Shown in pieces: positions 257-8,324 of a stretch of 9,114 nt of DNA. Within the stretch, counting starts at the first letter, position 1. Each line of letters begins with the position of its first letter. The position numbers were made by a program, and so were the translations under genes. The notes beneath the pieces were generated by a model. It was not told the origin of the DNA. It saw only the letters and a list, made by a program, of their open reading frames with translations, and did not search any database. Source of the DNA: Candidatus Fermentibacterota bacterium (GTDB lineage: Bacteria; JAFGKV01); assembly GCA_016928395.1 (NCBI GenBank), contig JAFGKV010000132.1:1-9114 (forward strand), given 5' to 3'.

Positions 257-2299
257 CTATCGCAGCACCATCACAGGTCGCACGCTTCGATCAGATCCGG
301 AGACCAGTCGGCAGAAGTAAACTCCGGAGGGGATCGATGAGGCGTCCCAGGATACGGTGTGATACCCGGCGGGAAGCGTCTTGTCGACCAAGGTCGTGAT
401 CTCCCTGCCTAGCGCATCCATCACCACCAGGCGTACATGTCCCATGGTCGGAATACCATAGGAGAACATCGTCTCGGTGCCAAAGGGATTCGGGCTGTTT
501 GGCAGCAGCACGCATGCCACCGGCAACGCCACATCCGGGTGACCATACGAGATCTCGGGCGTGTCGGTCGGGATGAGGCCGACATCGAGAATGTCGCCCT
601 CGTTGATGGCCTCCGCGACATCCTTGGCCAGCTCATCGTTGGCCGTCTCGTCATCGGTGATGAGCTGCCAGCAGTACGTGATGGCCTGCGAAGCCGTGGC
701 GCCGTCGTAGCTCACTGATGCGAACTGCGGCAGCTGCAGCGAGGTCACATTCAGCAGCAATGCCATCATCTGTCGCTTGGCCTTCTGCACCATCGGCACA
801 TTGCCGTCTGTATTGAGCAGATCATATGCTGCCTGCAGGCTGTCCACGTGGTCCGCAGGCTGGTTGACCACGTAGACCCCCAACGGGTTCGCAGGGCTGT
901 TGGTGAAGTGCATCGAGATGTCACTCAAGTAGCCCGTGAAGTCAGCCTCGTCGATCTGCGCGGCGCCTCGTCCGGTGAGATAGACCTTGAGCTGATGCTT
1001 CCAGAAGCCCACCGAACGAGGATCATATGCCAGGTCCATCGGGGTGAGGAAGAAGTCACACACAATATCCTCGCCTGCGATGGTCACGCCCTTCGATTCC
1101 GCATCGGCGACGTAGCCCAGAGGAGTGATGATGGAGACGGTGTAGTCGCCCCATGGCAGTTCAGAGAACGAATAGGCCCCAGACGCATCAGACTCTGTCA
1201 TCCCGAGCTCTACACCTAACGCATCGTGAAGCTCAACAGGAACCCCAGCGCGACCACCGGCAGAGCTCTTCACCGAGCCGGCAATCCTGCAGAACTGGGG
1301 AAGATCTTGATACCTCAGGATCTTGAATCCCGTGTTGTCAGCCACGTAGACAAGTTTATCCAAGACACAGAGATTCCTCATGTTCGTCCCGGGATTGTAG
1401 CGCGTGAGGTATTCACAATTCTGTGGATCAGAGATATCCACCACCCAGAGGCCACCGTAGTAATCACTCACATAGGCGATTTCATCCTCGACTTCGACGG
1501 AGACCGTTAAGTCCATTCCGGGTGGATTGAAGGAGCCGACTAACGACGGTGTTGCCGGGGCACTTACATCGAATATCACCAAACCTTCGGTCTTATCAGT
1601 CACATATGCGTGTGTGTCAACAACCTCGACATCATACGCCACGAAACCTGTCGTGATGGTGGAGATGGTGGAAAGAGCAGAGGGGTTCGTGGCATCGACT
1701 ATCCGAAGTCCCGCGTACCAGTCGCCGACGAAGACAAGACCATCTCGAGTGGCCACCCAGTGTGCGTTGTTCGTCGAGAGGCTGCCTACCTGAACGGGGT
1801 TTGAGGGGTCAGTCACATCAATCGCTCGGAGCCCTCCGAACCCACTTCCGACGAAGGCTATCGTACCATCGACCACCACTCCCCTTGCCTCGTGAGGAGT
1901 GGGGATGTGACCCTCGAGCTTCAGGTCGGCAGGATCGGAGATGTCGAAAATCCACATGCCACCGGTATCATGGTGAAAACCATCAGTGACGAAGGCGAGG
2001 GTACCCTCGATGTCGATTTGGCTGGCCGCGAATGAAGGATCACTCCACCCATCGAGGAATACCGGATTGCTGGGATCTGACACATCATAGGCAAGAAGAC
2101 CAGCCGCCTTTGCTCCCACGAAGGCGTAGGGGAATGCAACCTCCACAGCCATGGCGCCATCGGCCAGGAAGGCTTCGCCAAGAAGGACTAGCTCCGGAAG
2201 CACATCTCCTGTGGAGACCGAGGGGACTATGGTCGTGAGGAAGATCAGGACTACCGCAAGCACAGTTAGAAATCGTGGTCTATTCAGTGGCTCTCTCAT
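257..2299 (-). CDS. Exported LVIVD-type beta-propeller protein with carboxypeptidase-regulatory-like domain and FlgD/T9SS-type C-terminal tail
   Basis: The ATG at 2299 is chosen because GGAG lies 8 nt upstream and the next residues form a signal peptide (charged start, hydrophobic core about 11-24). The frame stays open to 2545, but that part has no start signal or recognisable sequence. The product is 680 aa. Residues about 43-332 hold seven repeats of the type 'AYVxxxxGGLxIxDVSDPSNPxxVGS', typical of LVIVD repeats, suggesting one seven-blade propeller. Residues 338-420 resemble a carboxypeptidase-regulatory/Cna-B-like beta sandwich (SDASGAYSFSELPWGDYTV). Residues about 425-580 are a mostly helical region opening with 'RSVGFWKHQ', which I do not recognise as a named family. 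Residues 599-680 are a FlgD-like/T9SS type A sorting-like domain (LPNSPNPF, SGVYFCRLVSG). It is likely a secreted or surface protein with no evident catalytic residues. It follows the sigma cassette after a 444-nt gap, so co-transcription is uncertain. Confidence 0.88.
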   Translation of the reverse strand: MREPLNRPRFLTVLAVVLIFLTTIVPSVSTGDVLPELVLLGEAFLADGAMAVEVAFPYAFVGAKAAGLLAYDVSDPSNPVFLDGWSDPSFAASQIDIEGTLAFVTDGFHHDTGGMWIFDISDPADLKLEGHIPTPHEARGVVVDGTIAFVGSGFGGLRAIDVTDPSNPVQVGSLSTNNAHWVATRDGLVFVGDWYAGLRIVDATNPSALSTISTITTGFVAYDVEVVDTHAYVTDKTEGLVIFDVSAPATPSLVGSFNPPGMDLTVSVEVEDEIAYVSDYYGGLWVVDISDPQNCEYLTRYNPGTNMRNLCVLDKLVYVADNTGFKILRYQDLPQFCRIAGSVKSSAGGRAGVPVELHDALGVELGMTESDASGAYSFSELPWGDYTVSIITPLGYVADAESKGVTIAGEDIVCDFFLTPMDLAYDPRSVGFWKHQLKVYLTGRGAAQIDEADFTGYLSDISMHFTNSPANPLGVYVVNQPADHVDSLQAAYDLLNTDGNVPMVQKAKRQMMALLLNVTSLQLPQFASVSYDGATASQAITYCWQLITDDETANDELAKDVAEAINEGDILDVGLIPTDTPEISYGHPDVALPVACVLLPNSPNPFGTETMFSYGIPTMGHVRLVVMDALGREITTLVDKTLPAGYHTVSWDASSIPSGVYFCRLVSGSDRSVRPVMVLR

Positions 2300-2743: not shown

Positions 2744-5041
2744 CTATCTGTGGCTTTGCCGCCTAAGGTGCTTCGATCCATGGAGCACTTGGATGCGTCG
2801 CATCGAACGGTCGAAGGCTTCGGAGCGTGCATCCCACGTTATCACGTTGTTTCGCCTTGCCTTCTCGGACCAGACCTTGAAGGCATCGCACGCGTAGAAG
2901 TCGACCACATTGAGATCGGTATCCAAGAAGTATCGGAAGACTGGCTCAGGCATTTTCCAGCCGGGTAGCCGCGCTGATATTTGAACAGAGAGAATAATCA
3001 CGCCATTATGGTGCTCGACTCGAGCGTTGGTAGCATCGAGACGACTCATGCCGAGAGCTTCAGGGAGGCCGATCGGAGTGGGAAAGATGATGTAGTCCTG
3101 GTAGCCCGTAGCAGCATCGTCAGTCTCGTACATTGGACCTCGACCGCAGCCTCCTCTCGGATCGAGGACCACGACAACAGGTGAACGGCAAGGAACATTG
3201 GTACCCGTACAGATGAATTCCTCGTACCCATCCTGGTCTATGTCATACACCGCTGACTTCTCGGTACCGTTGCAAAAAAACGCCGACCCATGATGTCCAG
3301 GATTCCAGAAGCTGTGAAGGTGTTCCCCACTGGAGGATAGCACGGCAGTCTGACACACGCCCGTTGGTCGGTGATAACAGCTCACAGCGAGCCAATGATC
3401 TTGACAGGTTGGCCCTCGGAGGAGCACCACGCCACTGATCCCGAAATTGTCGGCGACATCCCACGGCAAGGGGCACTCGAGGTTATTCCCCGCCCTAAAA
3501 CGCCAGAGTTCATTGCCGCGAGAGTCGAGGCAGAACAGCGTTCCGGGGACTGAATCTTCGACCGCGGTTCCATAGACTATCTCGGAACCTGCCAGCCCAT
3601 CCACATCTATCAGTTTGCTGAATCGGTTTGTGGTGTGGACGACTGGAAAACGCCGGATGCAGCGTCCCTTGCTATTGGAAAGCAGCATGTGCTGATGGTC
3701 CGGAGCCAGCCGCACTTCAGCTGGACGGGAATCCAGCCACCAAGCCAAGCGTGGAATGCTCCATGCAGCGGCAACCAACACGATGGCACACGCAAAGACT
3801 GTCATCAGCCTCCTCCCAGGTCGACCCTGACTCACGACAGCCATCAGACGCGTCGCGGGTCCACGCTTCTTGATCGTGACAAGGTGGTGCGAGCCGAGTG
3901 CATCTCGAATACTCCGCAAGGGATAGCACTGCGTTTCGACACGAGACGACGCGAGCAGTCCACGGACAGCGGTTGACATCTCTTCATGCACTTCCGCAGG
4001 ATAGGCGATCCCCCGTAGTCGCGAGGCAGCAACCCGTTCGACCTTCTCTCGGAGGCTGCCGACCGGCCGGATCTGTCCCTCCTCGTCCAAGTCACCCGTC
4101 CAGGCAATCTGCTGGCTGGGACACATCTGATGAGGAAGATTCAGTTGTTCCCCGAGAGCATTGGCTGCCACAAGCGCGACGGGAAGAAGGATCGATCTAC
4201 CTTGGATTTCGGCTACCGCTTCCAGTCGCCCAAGGGTGAATGTGAATTCCAAGTGAGATCGGGCTCCCTCCTCGCCCGCCGAGGGACCGAGGAGGAGCAA
4301 GACATGCTCGACCGCGCGCCGGATTGCAGCGTCCAAAGCATTAGGGATGCTTCCCCCTTGCGCGTTTCTGATCTGAATCATGATGGATGGCGTCTTGCGA
4401 GCCTTGCTCACCTTGAGATATGCCGACAGCTGAGTCAGATAGCCCTCGCGGTATCGAGCAGGTACGTCTGGCGTGTCCACGAGCACCGTCAGAAGTACGC
4501 CAACCGGAACATCATCCGGTCTCATCAGGTGATACGGCCACACCAACCGATCGTACCCGCCTTGATCCGATTGCCTCGAGTCAATCTCTCGGAGAGCGTC
4601 GAGTGTTCCGTCGAGATCATGCTCCGGGATGGGCACATCCGGGACCAGCCTACTCATGATCCCTTTTGCAGCAGACCAATCTGCACGGATGACGTGCTCA
4701 GCAGCCTGAAGGACACGCAATCTCCCAAGTGCACAGGACAACGTTGTGATACTCCGGCCAGCATCAGTGGATAGATGAGTCTCGATTGTCTGTAGAACAT
4801 CTGCGAGGAACCCGAGATGCCCGGAAATCGGAACTGGTCCAAGAGTGAGGTCGCACAGACGAGTCAGCGTATCAACGTGGTAGAACAACACGGATGGCAA
4901 CTCAGCGAGAGGCGGAAGGGACTTCAGATGATCGAGGAGCCGCACTGCGGCTTGCTTCCTTGTGAGAACAGGCAGAGTGATGAGCAGTTCGCTGTGGCGA
5001 CCGTCGATCAGCGGAAGAGAGTGCCCCCGGTCGTTAGCCAT
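2744..5041 (-). CDS. Membrane protein with cytoplasmic Lon/S16-like protease domain and extracytoplasmic FG-GAP-like domain
   Basis: The ATG at 5041 gives 765 aa and begins 13 nt after the upstream gene's stop. A GTG at 5068 (774 aa, 14-nt overlap) is an alternative; neither has a good Shine-Dalgarno. Residues 1-about 230 are unrecognised. Residues about 260-350 match the Lon proteolytic/RadA C-terminal fold: 'AEIQGRS' then 'WTGDLDEEGQIRPVGSLREK' lines up with Lon 'MTGEITLRGxVLPxGGLKEK'. K333 falls on the catalytic Lys of Lon (E. coli K722), and S283 is the best candidate for the Ser, although the GPSAG context is lost. There is no AAA+ ATPase module. A basic stretch (391-411) precedes one membrane helix (about 412-436), predicting N-terminus inside and C-terminus outside. 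Residues 440-765 contain FG-GAP/VCBS-like motifs (LIDVDGLAGSEIVYG; YDIDQDGYEEFI, D600/D602/D604/E608). It is third in the sigma cassette and may sense outside and act on the anti-sigma inside; that role is inferred. Confidence 0.8.
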   Translation of the reverse strand: MANDRGHSLPLIDGRHSELLITLPVLTRKQAAVRLLDHLKSLPPLAELPSVLFYHVDTLTRLCDLTLGPVPISGHLGFLADVLQTIETHLSTDAGRSITTLSCALGRLRVLQAAEHVIRADWSAAKGIMSRLVPDVPIPEHDLDGTLDALREIDSRQSDQGGYDRLVWPYHLMRPDDVPVGVLLTVLVDTPDVPARYREGYLTQLSAYLKVSKARKTPSIMIQIRNAQGGSIPNALDAAIRRAVEHVLLLLGPSAGEEGARSHLEFTFTLGRLEAVAEIQGRSILLPVALVAANALGEQLNLPHQMCPSQQIAWTGDLDEEGQIRPVGSLREKVERVAASRLRGIAYPAEVHEEMSTAVRGLLASSRVETQCYPLRSIRDALGSHHLVTIKKRGPATRLMAVVSQGRPGRRLMTVFACAIVLVAAAWSIPRLAWWLDSRPAEVRLAPDHQHMLLSNSKGRCIRRFPVVHTTNRFSKLIDVDGLAGSEIVYGTAVEDSVPGTLFCLDSRGNELWRFRAGNNLECPLPWDVADNFGISGVVLLRGPTCQDHWLAVSCYHRPTGVCQTAVLSSSGEHLHSFWNPGHHGSAFFCNGTEKSAVYDIDQDGYEEFICTGTNVPCRSPVVVVLDPRGGCGRGPMYETDDAATGYQDYIIFPTPIGLPEALGMSRLDATNARVEHHNGVIILSVQISARLPGWKMPEPVFRYFLDTDLNVVDFYACDAFKVWSEKARRNNVITWDARSEAFDRSMRRIQVLHGSKHLRRQSHR

Positions 5042-5054
5042 CACTGCTATTGTG

Positions 5055-5942
5055 TCAGGAAGCCACACCTACGACGTATGCAGTCAAGGAGAATTCACGC
5101 GCTTCAGTGTCCTCATCTGACACCCATCCGATCCCTCCCGCGTCAACAGAGATAAGCTCTTCACGCGAGCCATGAGAAACATAGGCGCGCAAGCTGCACT
5201 TGGGATGTCTCGTAGTCATGTCGCTGAGATCGAGTCTATAGCGTCTTCCAGCGGCAGTTTCGATCAGCGAGACGATGAGTTTGTATCCCTGGCGAGAGGT
5301 GATGGTCACTGCCCCTTCTGCGACCAGCGAATCATGGAGAGCACGAGGTTGGAGGTGGAAATGTGCATCACCGTGGAAGAGGACCACGGACGTATCCGCG
5401 GGGGACAAGGCGGGCGCATCTTCGACGATTAGGCAGCCCTTCACGTCGGGCCTGCCCTCGTAGTAGAACCCCACTTTCGGATTCGAGATCACCAAAATGC
5501 TCTCGCCCAGCCATGGCACGTCCTCTCCAATGAGGTACAGCCGCACCTGGCCAGACCAGGCTTGCCGAAGCGAGCGCAGCAGAATCGATCCATCTTCGGA
5601 GACGAAAGCATCGATGTCGCCCTCGCCACCAGTGTCTGCTGCCAAAGCGCGTGGCGCTGTGATTGGCGTCATCGGTTGATGTCGGGGGTAGAACCTGACG
5701 ACATTAGAGGCAGAAGGAGATACGCGTCGCGCCAGCACCCGTTGCCATAGATCCGGTCGGTCTTCCACCTCCGCACTTTTGCGATGCGCAACTCGCACAC
5801 AATCGACGAGGATGTCACAGCAGTACTGGCACTCCGAGAAGTGCCCCTCAAGCACGGACCGGAGTTCATCCGAAATCGCTCCCGAGAGGTATGAGGCGAG
5901 CAGCATTTCGTCGGGGCACGAGATCGGCGGATTCTCAAGCAT
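5055..5942 (-). CDS. Soluble zinc-finger (zf-HC2-like) anti-sigma-type protein
   Basis: The ATG at 5942 is preferred over the one at 5975 because GGAG lies 7 nt upstream and the zinc-finger domain follows at once. The product is 295 aa. The N-terminus carries C9 ('CPDEMLLASYLSGAISDE') and then H34-x3-C38-x2-C41, the signature of zinc-binding anti-sigma (ZAS, zf-HC2) domains that clamp ECF sigma factors. A hinge (about 50-105) leads into a beta-rich region of about 190 residues that I do not recognise (DGSILLRSL, GQVRLYLIGE, CSLRAYVSH). No transmembrane segment is visible, unlike many ZAS proteins. The gene starts 77 nt after the sigma factor gene and ends immediately ahead of the Lon-like membrane protein gene, so all three are probably one operon. 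Likely role: cytoplasmic inhibitor of the upstream sigma factor; the C-terminal part may be a ligand- or partner-binding module. Confidence 0.82.
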   Translation of the reverse strand: MLENPPISCPDEMLLASYLSGAISDELRSVLEGHFSECQYCCDILVDCVRVAHRKSAEVEDRPDLWQRVLARRVSPSASNVVRFYPRHQPMTPITAPRALAADTGGEGDIDAFVSEDGSILLRSLRQAWSGQVRLYLIGEDVPWLGESILVISNPKVGFYYEGRPDVKGCLIVEDAPALSPADTSVVLFHGDAHFHLQPRALHDSLVAEGAVTITSRQGYKLIVSLIETAAGRRYRLDLSDMTTRHPKCSLRAYVSHGSREELISVDAGGIGWVSDEDTEAREFSLTAYVVGVAS

Positions 5943-5949
5943 TGCAGCG

Positions 5950-5953
5950 CTCC
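5950..5953 (-). promoter_or_regulatory. Shine-Dalgarno of the anti-sigma-type gene (decides start)
   Basis: GGAG on the minus strand, 7 nt before the ATG at 5942. The alternative ATG at 5975 has only a GAGG about 14 nt upstream, too far for good use. This supports the 295-aa product over one 11 residues longer. Confidence 0.65.
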
Positions 5954-6019
5954 ATATGAGTTCGCGTCTTGGCATTCACAAGACTCAGCCCTCGTTCAAT
6001 GCCGCAAGCATGCGACCGC

Positions 6020-6658
6020 TTACTCCAGGGCATTTCCGGGGCCCTCGCATGAACAACGGCTAAGGCTCTCGTTTTGCTGGAGAGCACTGCGCATTTTCAC
6101 CTTGGCCTGTGCTATCGAGGACGATACCGCTCCGATTGTGACTCGCGCCAACTCTGCGATTTCGCGATACTTCAGACCGCCAAAGTAGAATAGCCGCACG
6201 TAGTAGCGTTCCCTTTCGGAGAGGCAGCCGAGAGCCGCATTGAGGGATTCCTCCGTGCAGATGGCCTCCAGAGGATCCAGTTCCATGTGTCCTTCAGAGG
6301 AAGCGGCCAGGCCTGGCGCACCCCGTATGTAGGGCGACGCGTCACCAATCGGGATGACAAAACGATCATGTCTGAGGTGATCGCGATAGAGGTTTCTGGC
6401 GATGATGAGGAGCCACCATCGGAATTGGTGATCCGAGGCAAAAGCGGCATCCCTGATTCGTTGGCCGTTCTTGGCCATCAACCGGCAGAAGAGCTCGATG
6501 AGAATGTCATCCGCAGTGTCGGGGTCAGCGCCTGATTGCCGAAGAAAACCCGTGATCGTTCCAGAGTGCTCAACAAAAAGCCTGTGCCACGCTTCTACAT
6601 CGCCCTCGATGCACCTCTGGAGTATTGAGAGAATCGGGTTTCCTCGTTGTTCGCTCAA
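6020..6658 (-). CDS. RNA polymerase ECF-like sigma factor
   Basis: The start is TTG at 6658, with AGGA 7 nt upstream. The first in-frame ATG would remove most of region 2, so the TTG is credible. The product is 212 aa, a normal length for an ECF (group 4) sigma. Residues about 8-100 form sigma region 2: 'DPDTADDILIELFCRLM' (2.1-2.2), then 'FRWWLLIIARNLYRDHLR' (2.3-2.4, -10 recognition). A poorly conserved linker (about 101-130) follows. Residues about 134-193 form region 4: 'LSERERYYVRLFYFGGLKYREIAELA' then the helix 'VTIGAVSSSIAQAKVKMR' for -35 recognition. It directs core RNA polymerase to its own promoter set, and is probably held inactive by the zinc-finger protein encoded next. The short C-terminal tail (RCSCEGPGNALE) includes two cysteines of unknown meaning. 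Confidence 0.92.
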   Translation of the reverse strand: MSEQRGNPILSILQRCIEGDVEAWHRLFVEHSGTITGFLRQSGADPDTADDILIELFCRLMAKNGQRIRDAAFASDHQFRWWLLIIARNLYRDHLRHDRFVIPIGDASPYIRGAPGLAASSEGHMELDPLEAICTEESLNAALGCLSERERYYVRLFYFGGLKYREIAELARVTIGAVSSSIAQAKVKMRSALQQNESLSRCSCEGPGNALE

Positions 6659-6868: not shown

Positions 6869-7040
6869 GCGGTGGGGAAGCAGGGTTCACCACCAAGACA
6901 CGAAGGACACCAAGGAAGCAAGAACTTCACCATGAAGAACATGAAGGGCATGAAGAGTGACGAGAGAATGAAACGATGTCCTGCATTCTCTCGCCACAGG
7001 TGTGCCTTGCCCTGCGGGGCGGGGGACCAGTCGGCAGTAG
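6869..7040. repeat. Dispersed repeat, copy B (GCGGTGGGGAA, CACGAAG leader, hairpin, GTGTGCCTT tail)
   Basis: The order of parts matches the copy at 100-250. GCGGTGGGGAA (6869-6879) comes first, then a purine-rich leader of repeated ACACGAAGG, ACACCAAGG and ATGAAGG-like units up to GAAGAGTGAC, then a hairpin with a 13-nt loop, then CACAGG(T)GTGCCTT. It ends near GGCAGTAGG (7032-7040), which resembles the first bases of the window. The element is non-coding, and shared structure rather than an open frame is what is kept between copies. Confidence 0.7.
6956..6997. repeat. Hairpin copy B, covarying with copy A
   Basis: The core arms CGAGAGAATG (6961-6970) and CATTCTCTCG (6984-6993) pair perfectly around a 13-nt loop. 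The pairing extends outwards (GTG ... CAC) past one A.C mismatch. Compared with copy A at 176-216, the two changed stem positions differ on both arms so that pairing is kept. Confidence 0.75.
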
Positions 7041-7107: not shown

Positions 7108-7326
7108 TCAATCGACCTTCTCGCCACACTGCCGCCCCTCGGCGTCATACTCGCCCGTGGATTCGCGGACTTTGCGGGTGGGCGGCATCTCCTCCACCAC
7201 CTTCCCATCACGCCAGATGACAAGGGGTCTGCCTCGGCGACGATGTTCTTCTATCACCCCGTCCACGGCCGCACGCATTGCGGCCATCGCCTTCTCAGTC
7301 AGTGTGTCTTCCTTCTTGTGCGTCAT
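7108..7326 (-). CDS. Small partner (putative antitoxin) of the zeta-like kinase
   Basis: The product is 72 aa. The sequence 'EKAMAAMRAAVDGVIEEHRRRGRPLVIWRDGKVVEE' resembles a small protein commonly encoded beside COG4185/zeta-toxin-like ATPases: a predicted amphipathic helix followed by a short 'RRRGxPLxIWRDGKVV' beta hairpin. The ATG overlaps the kinase gene's stop as ATGA (7323-7326), so the two are almost certainly translated together. The toxin-like gene comes first, opposite to the usual antitoxin-first order. The antitoxin role is inferred from size and coupling; no DNA-binding domain is apparent. A 6-bp hairpin (AAGGTC 7104-7109, GACCTT 7114-7119) spans the stop codon. Confidence 0.72.
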   Translation of the reverse strand: MTHKKEDTLTEKAMAAMRAAVDGVIEEHRRRGRPLVIWRDGKVVEEMPPTRKVRESTGEYDAEGRQCGEKVD

Positions 7327-7904
7327 CGGTGTCCTCCGGCTGTCGCGATGATCCTATCATAGAGACGTCGATCGATAATCGTCACCTCACCTTGTTCCTC
7401 GTGAAAGACCATTCTTGGCTCAGCCGTAGAATTGTCAAAGAAATGCAGGGAATCAAGTTCTTTGCGATAGACACAGAACAGGTTTCTGAGGCTGCGGCTG
7501 TAACGCCTCCGTACGTCCGTTTCCGGCACATCGTGGCCACCCTGGTCGACCCGGTCCCTGATTCGCGCCACCGCCATCTCAGCACTGGGTATCCAGAGAT
7601 AGAACATGTGTGCCCGATACCCCGTCACACGAATGGACCGGATGAGGTTGAGATGCGTGCGGCCCGAGAGCGTCGTCTCGAACGCAAAATCATCCCGGCG
7701 CCGGACGGATTCCGCAATCTCCTCAAGAACGAGGCGCCCTGCCTTCACTATCGCCCTGCTTGGGTCGAAAGGAGATAGCCCACCTGCGATGAGATCAGGA
7801 TTGATGAAATTCAGGCAATGCGCGTACCTGGGCAGAAATTCCCGCGCGAACGTAGTCTTGCCGGCTCCGTTCGACCCTGCGACGATATGGCACTCAAGCA
7901 CCAC
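7323..7904 (-). CDS. Zeta-toxin-like P-loop kinase (COG4185/AAA_33 type)
   Basis: The product is 193 aa, starting at GTG 7904 (a second GTG follows at 7901). The sequence shows an N-terminal Walker A motif (GSNGAGKTT, 10-18), 'FINPDLIAGGLSP' (33-45), 'FAFETTLSGRTHL' (73-85), and 'RVDQGGHDVPETDVRRRY' (118-135), the late Arg-rich phosphate-binding region of this family. These are the conserved blocks of compact zeta-toxin-like ATPases. Classical zeta toxins phosphorylate UDP-N-acetylglucosamine and block wall synthesis; whether this compact branch does so is not established by sequence. All key motifs appear intact. The start codon abuts the TGA of the truncated methylase-family gene (TGAGTG), and the end overlaps the small partner gene by 4 nt. 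It is therefore expressed from upstream, possibly by read-through and coupling from the truncated gene. Confidence 0.88.
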   Translation of the reverse strand: MVLECHIVAGSNGAGKTTFAREFLPRYAHCLNFINPDLIAGGLSPFDPSRAIVKAGRLVLEEIAESVRRRDDFAFETTLSGRTHLNLIRSIRVTGYRAHMFYLWIPSAEMAVARIRDRVDQGGHDVPETDVRRRYSRSLRNLFCVYRKELDSLHFFDNSTAEPRMVFHEEQGEVTIIDRRLYDRIIATAGGHR

Positions 7905-8108
7905 TCACCACCCGAGGAAGCAGGGTTTGAGCACCTTGGGGACGTACATGAAATCAGTACTTTCCGCCCTCGCCGCGGCCAACGGCCGCCTCGCCGACCA
8001 CAAGTGCAGCGTACTCGGATGTCCATGCCGTATCGACTTCTCCCTCGCACTCGCCGCATTGATCGCATCCAACGGCAACGCCACCTCAATGAGCTTCCTG
8101 TGGTTCAC
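7905..8108 (-). pseudogene. Truncated N-terminus of a DUF1156-family DNA methylase gene
   Basis: Translation from GTG 8108, with AGGAG 5 nt upstream, gives 67 aa. The first about 49 residues are near-consensus for the N-terminus of DUF1156 proteins: '[17 protein letters not shown]', '[17 protein letters not shown]', '[10 protein letters not shown]'. This family comprises large (often around 900-aa) adenine-specific methylase-like proteins, several of which occur in anti-phage islands with DUF499 ATPases. Homology stops at about residue 49, and 18 unrelated residues follow before TGA. The expected 'LHLWWARRP' reads 'LHLWSARRP'. The start region is intact while about 95% of the gene is missing, so this is a stub left by a large deletion. 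The GTG overlaps the TGA of a preceding frame (GTGA), which hints that an upstream operon partner once existed. Confidence 0.78.
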
Positions 8109-8113
8109 TCTGT

Positions 8114-8118
8114 CTCCT
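8114..8118 (-). promoter_or_regulatory. Preserved Shine-Dalgarno of the DUF1156 stub
   Basis: AGGAG on the minus strand, 5 nt before the GTG at 8108. It confirms the start of the DUF1156 reading frame and shows that translation of the stub could still occur, feeding ribosomes to the abutting zeta-like gene. Confidence 0.55.
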
Positions 8119-8281
8119 GGGTTTGGCATGCGGCATACCCGATCCATTCTCGGGCATCGGCCGGTTGGGCCCGGCTCTCTAATGCCACGCGAGAAGCGGA
8201 TCGCTTGTGGATCATCTGACGCAGGCTGAGGCATATCAGACGATTGCCGGACGATTCCGGCGTGCGTGGTGATGAGCCGCA

Positions 8282-8324
8282 TCGATGGATTAGACCAAGT
8301 CGTCGATGGATTGTCGATGGATTA
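8282..8324. repeat. Short direct repeats TCGATGGATT (three units)
   Basis: TCGATGGATT occurs at 8282-8291, 8303-8312 and 8314-8323; the last two are adjacent with one base between. The block sits at the stop codon of the winged-helix fragment. It may reflect local slippage; nothing points to a function. Confidence 0.5.

Follow-up and report, generated by a model that had tools for sequence, protein, structure and literature searches.

The window analysed here is an entire 9.1-kb contig (C170; 9,114 nt) from the 4.8-Mb draft genome of a Candidatus Fermentibacterota bacterium. On its minus strand it carries, in this order, genes for an extracytoplasmic function (ECF) sigma factor, a protein resembling zinc-binding anti-sigmas (ZAS protein), a membrane protein that joins a Lon-like domain, one transmembrane (TM) helix and an FG-GAP-like domain, and a secreted protein with LVIVD repeats. 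The four genes are listed below, with the basis of each assignment.

6020..6658 (-), ECF sigma factor gene, 212 aa, TTG start (Pfam, TIGR02937)
5055..5975 (-), soluble ZAS anti-sigma-like protein, 306 aa (translation, homologues)
2744..5068 (-), Lon-like/TM/FG-GAP membrane protein, with two candidate starts, GTG 5068 (774 aa) and ATG 5041 (765 aa)
257..2299 (-), gene 4, secreted protein, open reading frame (ORF) from 2545 with likely start ATG 2299 (LVIVD, sorting tail)

The sigma and ZAS genes are separated by 44 nt, and the Lon-like gene either overlaps the ZAS stop codon by 14 nt, if it starts at GTG 5068, or begins 13 nt past it, if it starts at ATG 5041. An earlier note on this DNA had described a tightly spaced ECF-like sigma, a ZAS protein without membrane helix and a Lon-like/one-TM/FG-GAP protein with N-in, C-out orientation, and every part of that description was found again. 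Inspection by eye alone of the DNA upstream of the sigma and Lon-like genes established no shared ECF promoter.

Domain architecture of the encoded proteins

Of the sigma-70 regions, the sigma factor has only 2 and 4, which is the composition of ECF sigma factors. Pfam Sigma70_r4_2 matches at 3e-9, above its cut-off, and r2 at 9e-5, just below; the NCBIfam profile of the sigma70-ECF superfamily, TIGR02937, scores 63.9 bits against a cut-off of 42.9.

The ZAS protein is built from an N-terminal HxxxCxxC domain and a C-terminal domain that is beta-rich by appearance. Its best 19-residue hydropathy is 1.09 and hence it has no TM helix. A membrane segment is likewise absent from 15 of 15 homologues, whose hydrophobic maximum never exceeds 1.27, and these proteins are thus not membrane-bound anti-sigmas of the kind used in regulated intramembrane proteolysis (RIP). 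The zinc motif is invariant in the 15 homologues aligned.

5820..5843 (-), ZAS zinc motif H45-x3-C49-x2-C52

Pfam zf-HC2 was not called in the window ZAS and was called in two relatives (best 3.8e-7), NCBIfam 'antisigma' reached 0.0045, and the ZAS profile matched the RsiW and ChrR chains weakly (E 0.03 and 0.8). Across two phyla the ZAS protein is homologous over nearly its full length (hhalign 96.4%, E 1e-9).

The third protein divides into the parts listed below, where catalytic residues are paired with those of E. coli Lon, S679, T704 and K722.

4559..5017 (-), helical N-terminal domain, residues 18-170 (AlphaFold2, helices confident)
3833..4513 (-), Lon (S16) protease-like domain, residues 186-412 (AlphaFold2 and Foldseek, VIA, hhalign)
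4193..4195 (-), Ser292, predicted nucleophile (Lon S679), in 45/45 relatives
4097..4099 (-), Thr324 (Lon T704), Thr in 40/45 relatives and Ser in 5/45
4043..4045 (-), Lys342, predicted general base (Lon K722), in 45/45 relatives
3752..3808 (-), single TM helix, residues 421-439, hydropathy 2.18, preceded by a basic stretch
2747..3751 (-), extracytoplasmic FG-GAP/beta-propeller-like domain (FG-GAP_3 in family members; hhalign between phyla)

Searches of Pfam, NCBIfam and PDB sequences with the window copy alone gave faint Lon signals at best, namely 12.7 bits (E 0.09) for Pfam Lon_C and 11 bits for its Lon domain against PDB sequences. The profile of seven family members aligned with genuine Lon proteases at E 6e-6 and a score of 48 in hhalign, where 30 column-shuffled control profiles reached at most 19. 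With the AlphaFold2 (AF2) model of the domain, Foldseek placed 1rr9 first (E 5.1e-5, probability 1.00) among top rows that are nearly all Lon, and VIA-align gave a Z of 10.5 to human LONP1 (root-mean-square deviation 3.7, 166 aligned), with the Lon domains of BrxL, ComM and RadA ranking shortly after LONP1 among the structural matches. Moreover, the relative in genome G239 exceeds the Lon_C cut-off (31.5 versus 21.1 bits), and Ser292, Thr324 and Lys342 fall on the catalytic residues of E. coli Lon by alignment. Taken together, profile comparison and structure prediction confirm that the 765-aa protein carries the Lon fold which the earlier note had read in it. The Ser-Lys dyad, which that note had overlooked, is kept throughout the 45 non-redundant relatives even though the two main Lon-like groups share just 15-17% identity. 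The string LLGPSAG (residues 260-266) was also considered as the 'GPSAG' nucleophile site of Lon and was rejected, its Ser being replaced by Gln, Gly or Phe in relatives where Ser292 is conserved.

Pfam and NCBIfam scans gave no match to an AAA+ ATPase domain in the window protein or its relatives. The Walker-motif AAA+ domain that lies N-terminal to the protease in LonA and LonB was not found here, nor was the degenerate AAA+ module that lies ahead of the S16 domain in LonC, for which the N-terminal part is also too short. This part is instead predicted by AF2 to be a helical bundle of about 150 residues; in a model of residues 1-415 the protease part was unusable (pLDDT about 30-60 there). 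Between the two main Lon-like groups, these helical domains agree in position, but hhalign detected no homology (0.2%).

A net charge of +4 stands just ahead of the TM helix of the window protein. All 17 full or near-full family members likewise have a single strong hydrophobic segment after the Lon-like domain, and the stretch before it carries a net charge of +2 to +6. An N-in/C-out topology is predicted because this basic stretch precedes the helix. On the outer side, FG-GAP repeats were called in five of the six family members scanned (FG-GAP_3 down to 5e-9, FG-GAP 7.5e-6), the window copy being the one without a call, and the propeller is homologous between phyla (hhalign 99.1%, E 1e-18). 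PDB matches to designed 'Cake' propellers trace back to a single 30-residue motif that is repeated, and no function was read from them. In G239, a single in-frame stop (L178:5721-5723) separates the protease/TM part of the Lon-like gene from the rest of the propeller; it could be an assembly error, decay or the boundary of two separate chains.

The product of gene 4 has a signal-peptide-like N-terminus, LVIVD repeats (8e-34) and a Por/FlgD-type sorting tail of the type IX secretion system (T9SS) type, above cut-off.

Recurrence of the gene set

A profile search with the ZAS protein found a near full-length homologue in genome G298, which belongs to a different phylum. Among the 132 genomes of that phylum, 34 have a ZAS homologue and 40 a Lon-like protein, the latter at 56 places. 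At 38 of the 42 ZAS places the Lon-like gene comes next after the ZAS gene on the same strand, usually with a gap of 3-24 nt, and at least two of the four exceptions (G467, G473) sit at a contig end. Homology between the Lon-like proteins of this phylum and that of the window extends through the protease, the TM helix and the propeller (hhalign 99.6%, E 9e-25, 450 columns).

The full unit is also present in G173, from a phylum in which three genomes were compared. In the phylum of G239, four of seven genomes (G239, G101, G517 and G518) have a Lon-like match, each with an HxxxCxxC neighbour. There, profile similarity to ZAS is significant in G239 only (E 8e-13) and weak in G517 (0.003), the remaining assignments being made on motif, size and position. 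The order is mostly ZAS-Lon; in G239 it is Lon-sigma-ZAS, and in G517 it is gene 1-Lon-ZAS, gene 1 denoting the occupant of the sigma position. In 9 of the 11 cassettes that could be read, the Lon-like gene has a gene for a secreted protein behind it, as in the window, and this protein often bears an FlgD/Por-type sorting tail. No relative was found in viral contigs.

Recurrence of the cassette in four distantly related bacterial lineages, and hence a conserved gene set, is well supported. The proposed recurrence of the Lon-like/TM/FG-GAP architecture together with ZAS and a gene in the sigma position was thus borne out, by the 38 of 42 places in one phylum and by two further phyla. The unit had been described as three genes; these three stand, and the secreted LVIVD/sorting-tail gene should be counted with them.

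Within the window's own phylum, where three genomes were compared, the Lon-like family is present in all three, with four or more loci in the window's genome, three in a genome of the same genus and one in the third. The sigma gene adjoins the ZAS gene in all three genomes, since the pair recurs in both others; in G001 the contig stops within the ZAS gene. A second sigma-Lon linkage in the window's genus is seen at the edge of G001:C460, where a sigma gene belonging to this subfamily begins (MQVVDLHETIRGCLQGDQDSWHALF), about 610 nt away from a Lon-like gene and in divergent orientation to it, and the motif within MQVVDLHETIRGCLQGDQDSWHALF is restricted to this sigma subfamily in about 0.5 million translated residues compared.

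Some Lon-like copies of this phylum stand in tandem. Tandem pairs without sigma or ZAS gene were seen in the window's genus at L013:1-3212 and L006:3695-6299. A polysaccharide deacetylase-like gene lies downstream of the pair in L013 and is also found in L007, its likely continuation. About 65 nt upstream of the Lon-like copy of C341, and on its strand, L005:4535-7366 (+) encodes a secreted protein that is peptidase-like and has FG-GAP-like repeats.

A proposed switch, its alternatives and the flanking DNA

We favour, with moderate confidence, an ECF-type switch in which a soluble anti-sigma is cut by a dedicated, membrane-anchored, ATP-independent Lon-like sensor-protease. From the gene set we infer a protease activity, a substrate, a signal and a direction, as follows. 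The soluble zinc-motif anti-sigma would hold the sigma factor inactive, and sensing would fall to a separate inner-membrane protein, whose periplasmic propeller would take up the signal. The state or export of the secreted surface protein encoded next to it may, speculatively, be that signal. The cytoplasmic Lon-like domain would then cleave the anti-sigma without ATP, and the sigma factor would be released. The earlier note had offered cleavage, unfolding or simple binding of the anti-sigma by this domain. Cleavage is favoured among these because Ser and Lys are invariant in all 45 relatives, and ATP-driven unfolding is unlikely because the AAA+ domain was undetected. An ATP-independent S16 protease has a precedent in LonC (PMC3391209).

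Several observations weigh against this switch. Folded alone, the Lon-like domain was modelled with low confidence (mean pLDDT 54). In the window's phylum, most readable Lon-like copies have no sigma or ZAS neighbour (C341, C182, C256), and the sigma-ZAS pair at G002:C23 has no Lon-like gene across ~1.2 kb to the contig end. The orphan copies suggest that the protease can act without an adjacent switch, or in trans. That the three genes are neighbours in related genomes, as the earlier note had expected, fails for most copies in the window's phylum; across the other phyla it holds for the Lon-like and ZAS genes with a gene in the sigma position. Taken alone, the evidence from the window's phylum would leave the cassette doubtful.

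A further point of this kind concerns the sigma position. In G239 it is occupied by a clear ECF sigma factor (r4 3.5e-13, r2 1e-10), but most other cassettes carry there a protein of ~360-390 aa in which sigma homology was undetected. Members of this gene-1 family, of which 17 sequences were collected, show homology across two phyla (hhalign 97.5%, E 8e-12), and no match to them was found in Pfam, NCBIfam or PDB. Against sigma profiles it aligns best on region 2 and in the expected register, at a non-significant level (E 0.05, 1%). To judge from sequence comparison, the family may consist of sigma factors that have diverged very far, or of regulators of another kind. Members are encoded at the following places.

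L126:4019-5116 (+), gene-1 family member
L176:6145-7233 (-), gene-1 family member
L186:3538-4677 (+), gene-1 family member
L189:6646-7812 (-), gene-1 family member

The strongest alternative, which we regard as rather unlikely, places the Lon-like protein downstream of the sigma factor. The Lon-like and secreted proteins, as a protease serving the envelope or export and its cargo, would be switched on by the sigma factor, and the soluble ZAS protein would sense something cytoplasmic. ECF genes often adjoin their own targets, the secreted protein is a recurrent neighbour, and additional Lon-like genes, single or in tandem, occur with no sigma gene. In addition, soluble zinc anti-sigmas are often tied to intracellular redox sensing (PMC7406223). 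However, the position of the Lon-like gene at 3-24 nt past the ZAS gene in most cassettes argues against a mere target, and the set stays together despite its varying order in G517 and G239, which suggests joint function. Moreover, the protease would lie on the cytoplasmic side together with ZAS, away from the exported cargo.

It is less likely still that the Lon-like domain binds without cutting. It would then tether ZAS, or ZAS with sigma, to the membrane until a signal releases it, like a membrane anti-sigma split in two. The pairing of a TM-less ZAS with a one-TM partner does resemble such a protein in two pieces, and there are Lon-like domains without proteolytic function, of which RadA, ComM and BrxL turned up among the structural matches. 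A pure scaffold, however, needs no dyad, and here the dyad in 45 of 45 relatives and the assisting Thr or Ser are kept at 15-17% identity between phyla.

We consider it quite improbable that the protease acts on another substrate, be it the sigma factor, the gene-1 protein or the protease chain itself; the signal would in that case turn the switch off or free a fragment. Every partner is cytoplasmic, and Lon is known to degrade sigma-T (PMC10662116). Nevertheless, in most cassettes no gene lies closer to the Lon-like gene than ZAS, and gene 1 is swapped between lineages as ZAS and protease stay constant, so ZAS is the likelier constant partner. An accidental grouping of unrelated genes, or an erroneous domain call, might have been suggested by the full arrangement being present in the window's own genome only at the window copy; it is effectively refuted by the 38 of 42 co-locations in another phylum, by recurrence in four phyla, and by the fold and profile tests of the Lon domain.

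Beyond cleavage of the anti-sigma by the sensor-protease, a larger claim can be made only tentatively. The membrane-anchored, ATP-independent Lon-like sensor-protease could represent a new class of transducer, an inside-facing counterpart of RIP working on a two-domain soluble anti-sigma, and at the same time the gene-1 family could be a new sigma-like or otherwise ZAS-controlled regulator.

The remainder of the window lies mostly to the right of the four-gene block. Its features are listed below.

69-189 and 6940-7022, direct repeats flanking the four-gene block (31 nt at 90%, 40 nt at 73%)
around 6890-6920, AAGACACGAAGG-type sequence near the right-hand direct repeat
7108-7904 (-), zeta-toxin/AAA-like kinase gene (Zeta_toxin 7e-8)
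7108-7326 (-), small ORF on the same strand as the zeta-toxin-like gene, possibly forming a toxin-antitoxin-like pair with it
7905-8282 (-), apparent remnant of a truncated gene, matching residues 1-40 of DUF1156 (1.3e-17)

The direct repeats may be dispersed repeats that mark the borders of the block.

Comparison with known systems

A full-text search of the open-access literature found no description of the combination of sigma factor, ZAS and membrane Lon-like protein, and the mechanisms of ECF control named in the available parts of a 2021 review (PMC8103513) include no membrane-anchored S16 sensor-protease that serves as transducer. Soluble zinc anti-sigmas and proteolytic sigma release are each already known, and what appears to be undescribed is the S16 membrane sensor-protease as transducer. 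Recurrence across phyla lends support to the earlier claim of an undescribed transmembrane cassette.

How soluble zinc-type anti-sigmas might answer extracellular signals is largely unexplained, and a conserved partner with propeller, TM helix and a cytoplasmic Lon-like domain whose dyad is intact offers an answer that can be tested directly. If this answer is true, the Lon fold, which is known chiefly for ATP-driven quality control, would enter transmembrane signalling. In addition, the cassette exposes an unannotated family of ~360-390 aa at the sigma position in lineages known mainly through their genomes, and if this family is a new class of regulator, there is a fair chance of greater novelty.

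With switches of the RseA/DegS/RseP type the proposed system shares an ECF sigma factor and its anti-sigma, a membrane protein that couples the outside to sigma, and proteolysis as the likely means of release. It differs in that the anti-sigma is soluble, and sensing and proteolysis are apparently merged in one separate membrane protein of the S16 type, so that neither a site-1 nor a site-2 protease would be needed.

Soluble proteins make up about 35% of class I anti-sigmas, and the zinc type is common among them (PMC7406223). The window ZAS resembles soluble ZAS proteins of the RsrA/ChrR type in its solubility, its HxxxCxxC motif and the position of its gene beside sigma; it is set apart by a further conserved domain, about 200 aa long, and by the membrane Lon-like protein that is repeatedly encoded next to it. 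RsrA and ChrR themselves sense cytoplasmic redox or singlet oxygen.

With LonA, LonB and LonC, and with the Lon-like domains of BrxL, RadA and ComM, the window protein shares the S16 fold and the Ser-Lys dyad with its assisting Thr. Unlike the Lon proteases, it has a helical N-terminal domain in the place of AAA+, one TM helix and an extracytoplasmic FG-GAP/propeller domain. Finally, ImmA/ImmR is a system in which a dedicated protease, the soluble metalloprotease ImmA, cleaves a regulator. The window is similar in that a dedicated protease gene stands beside the regulator system that is its presumed target; here, by contrast, the protease would be a membrane-spanning S16 sensor-protease working with a sigma factor and its anti-sigma.

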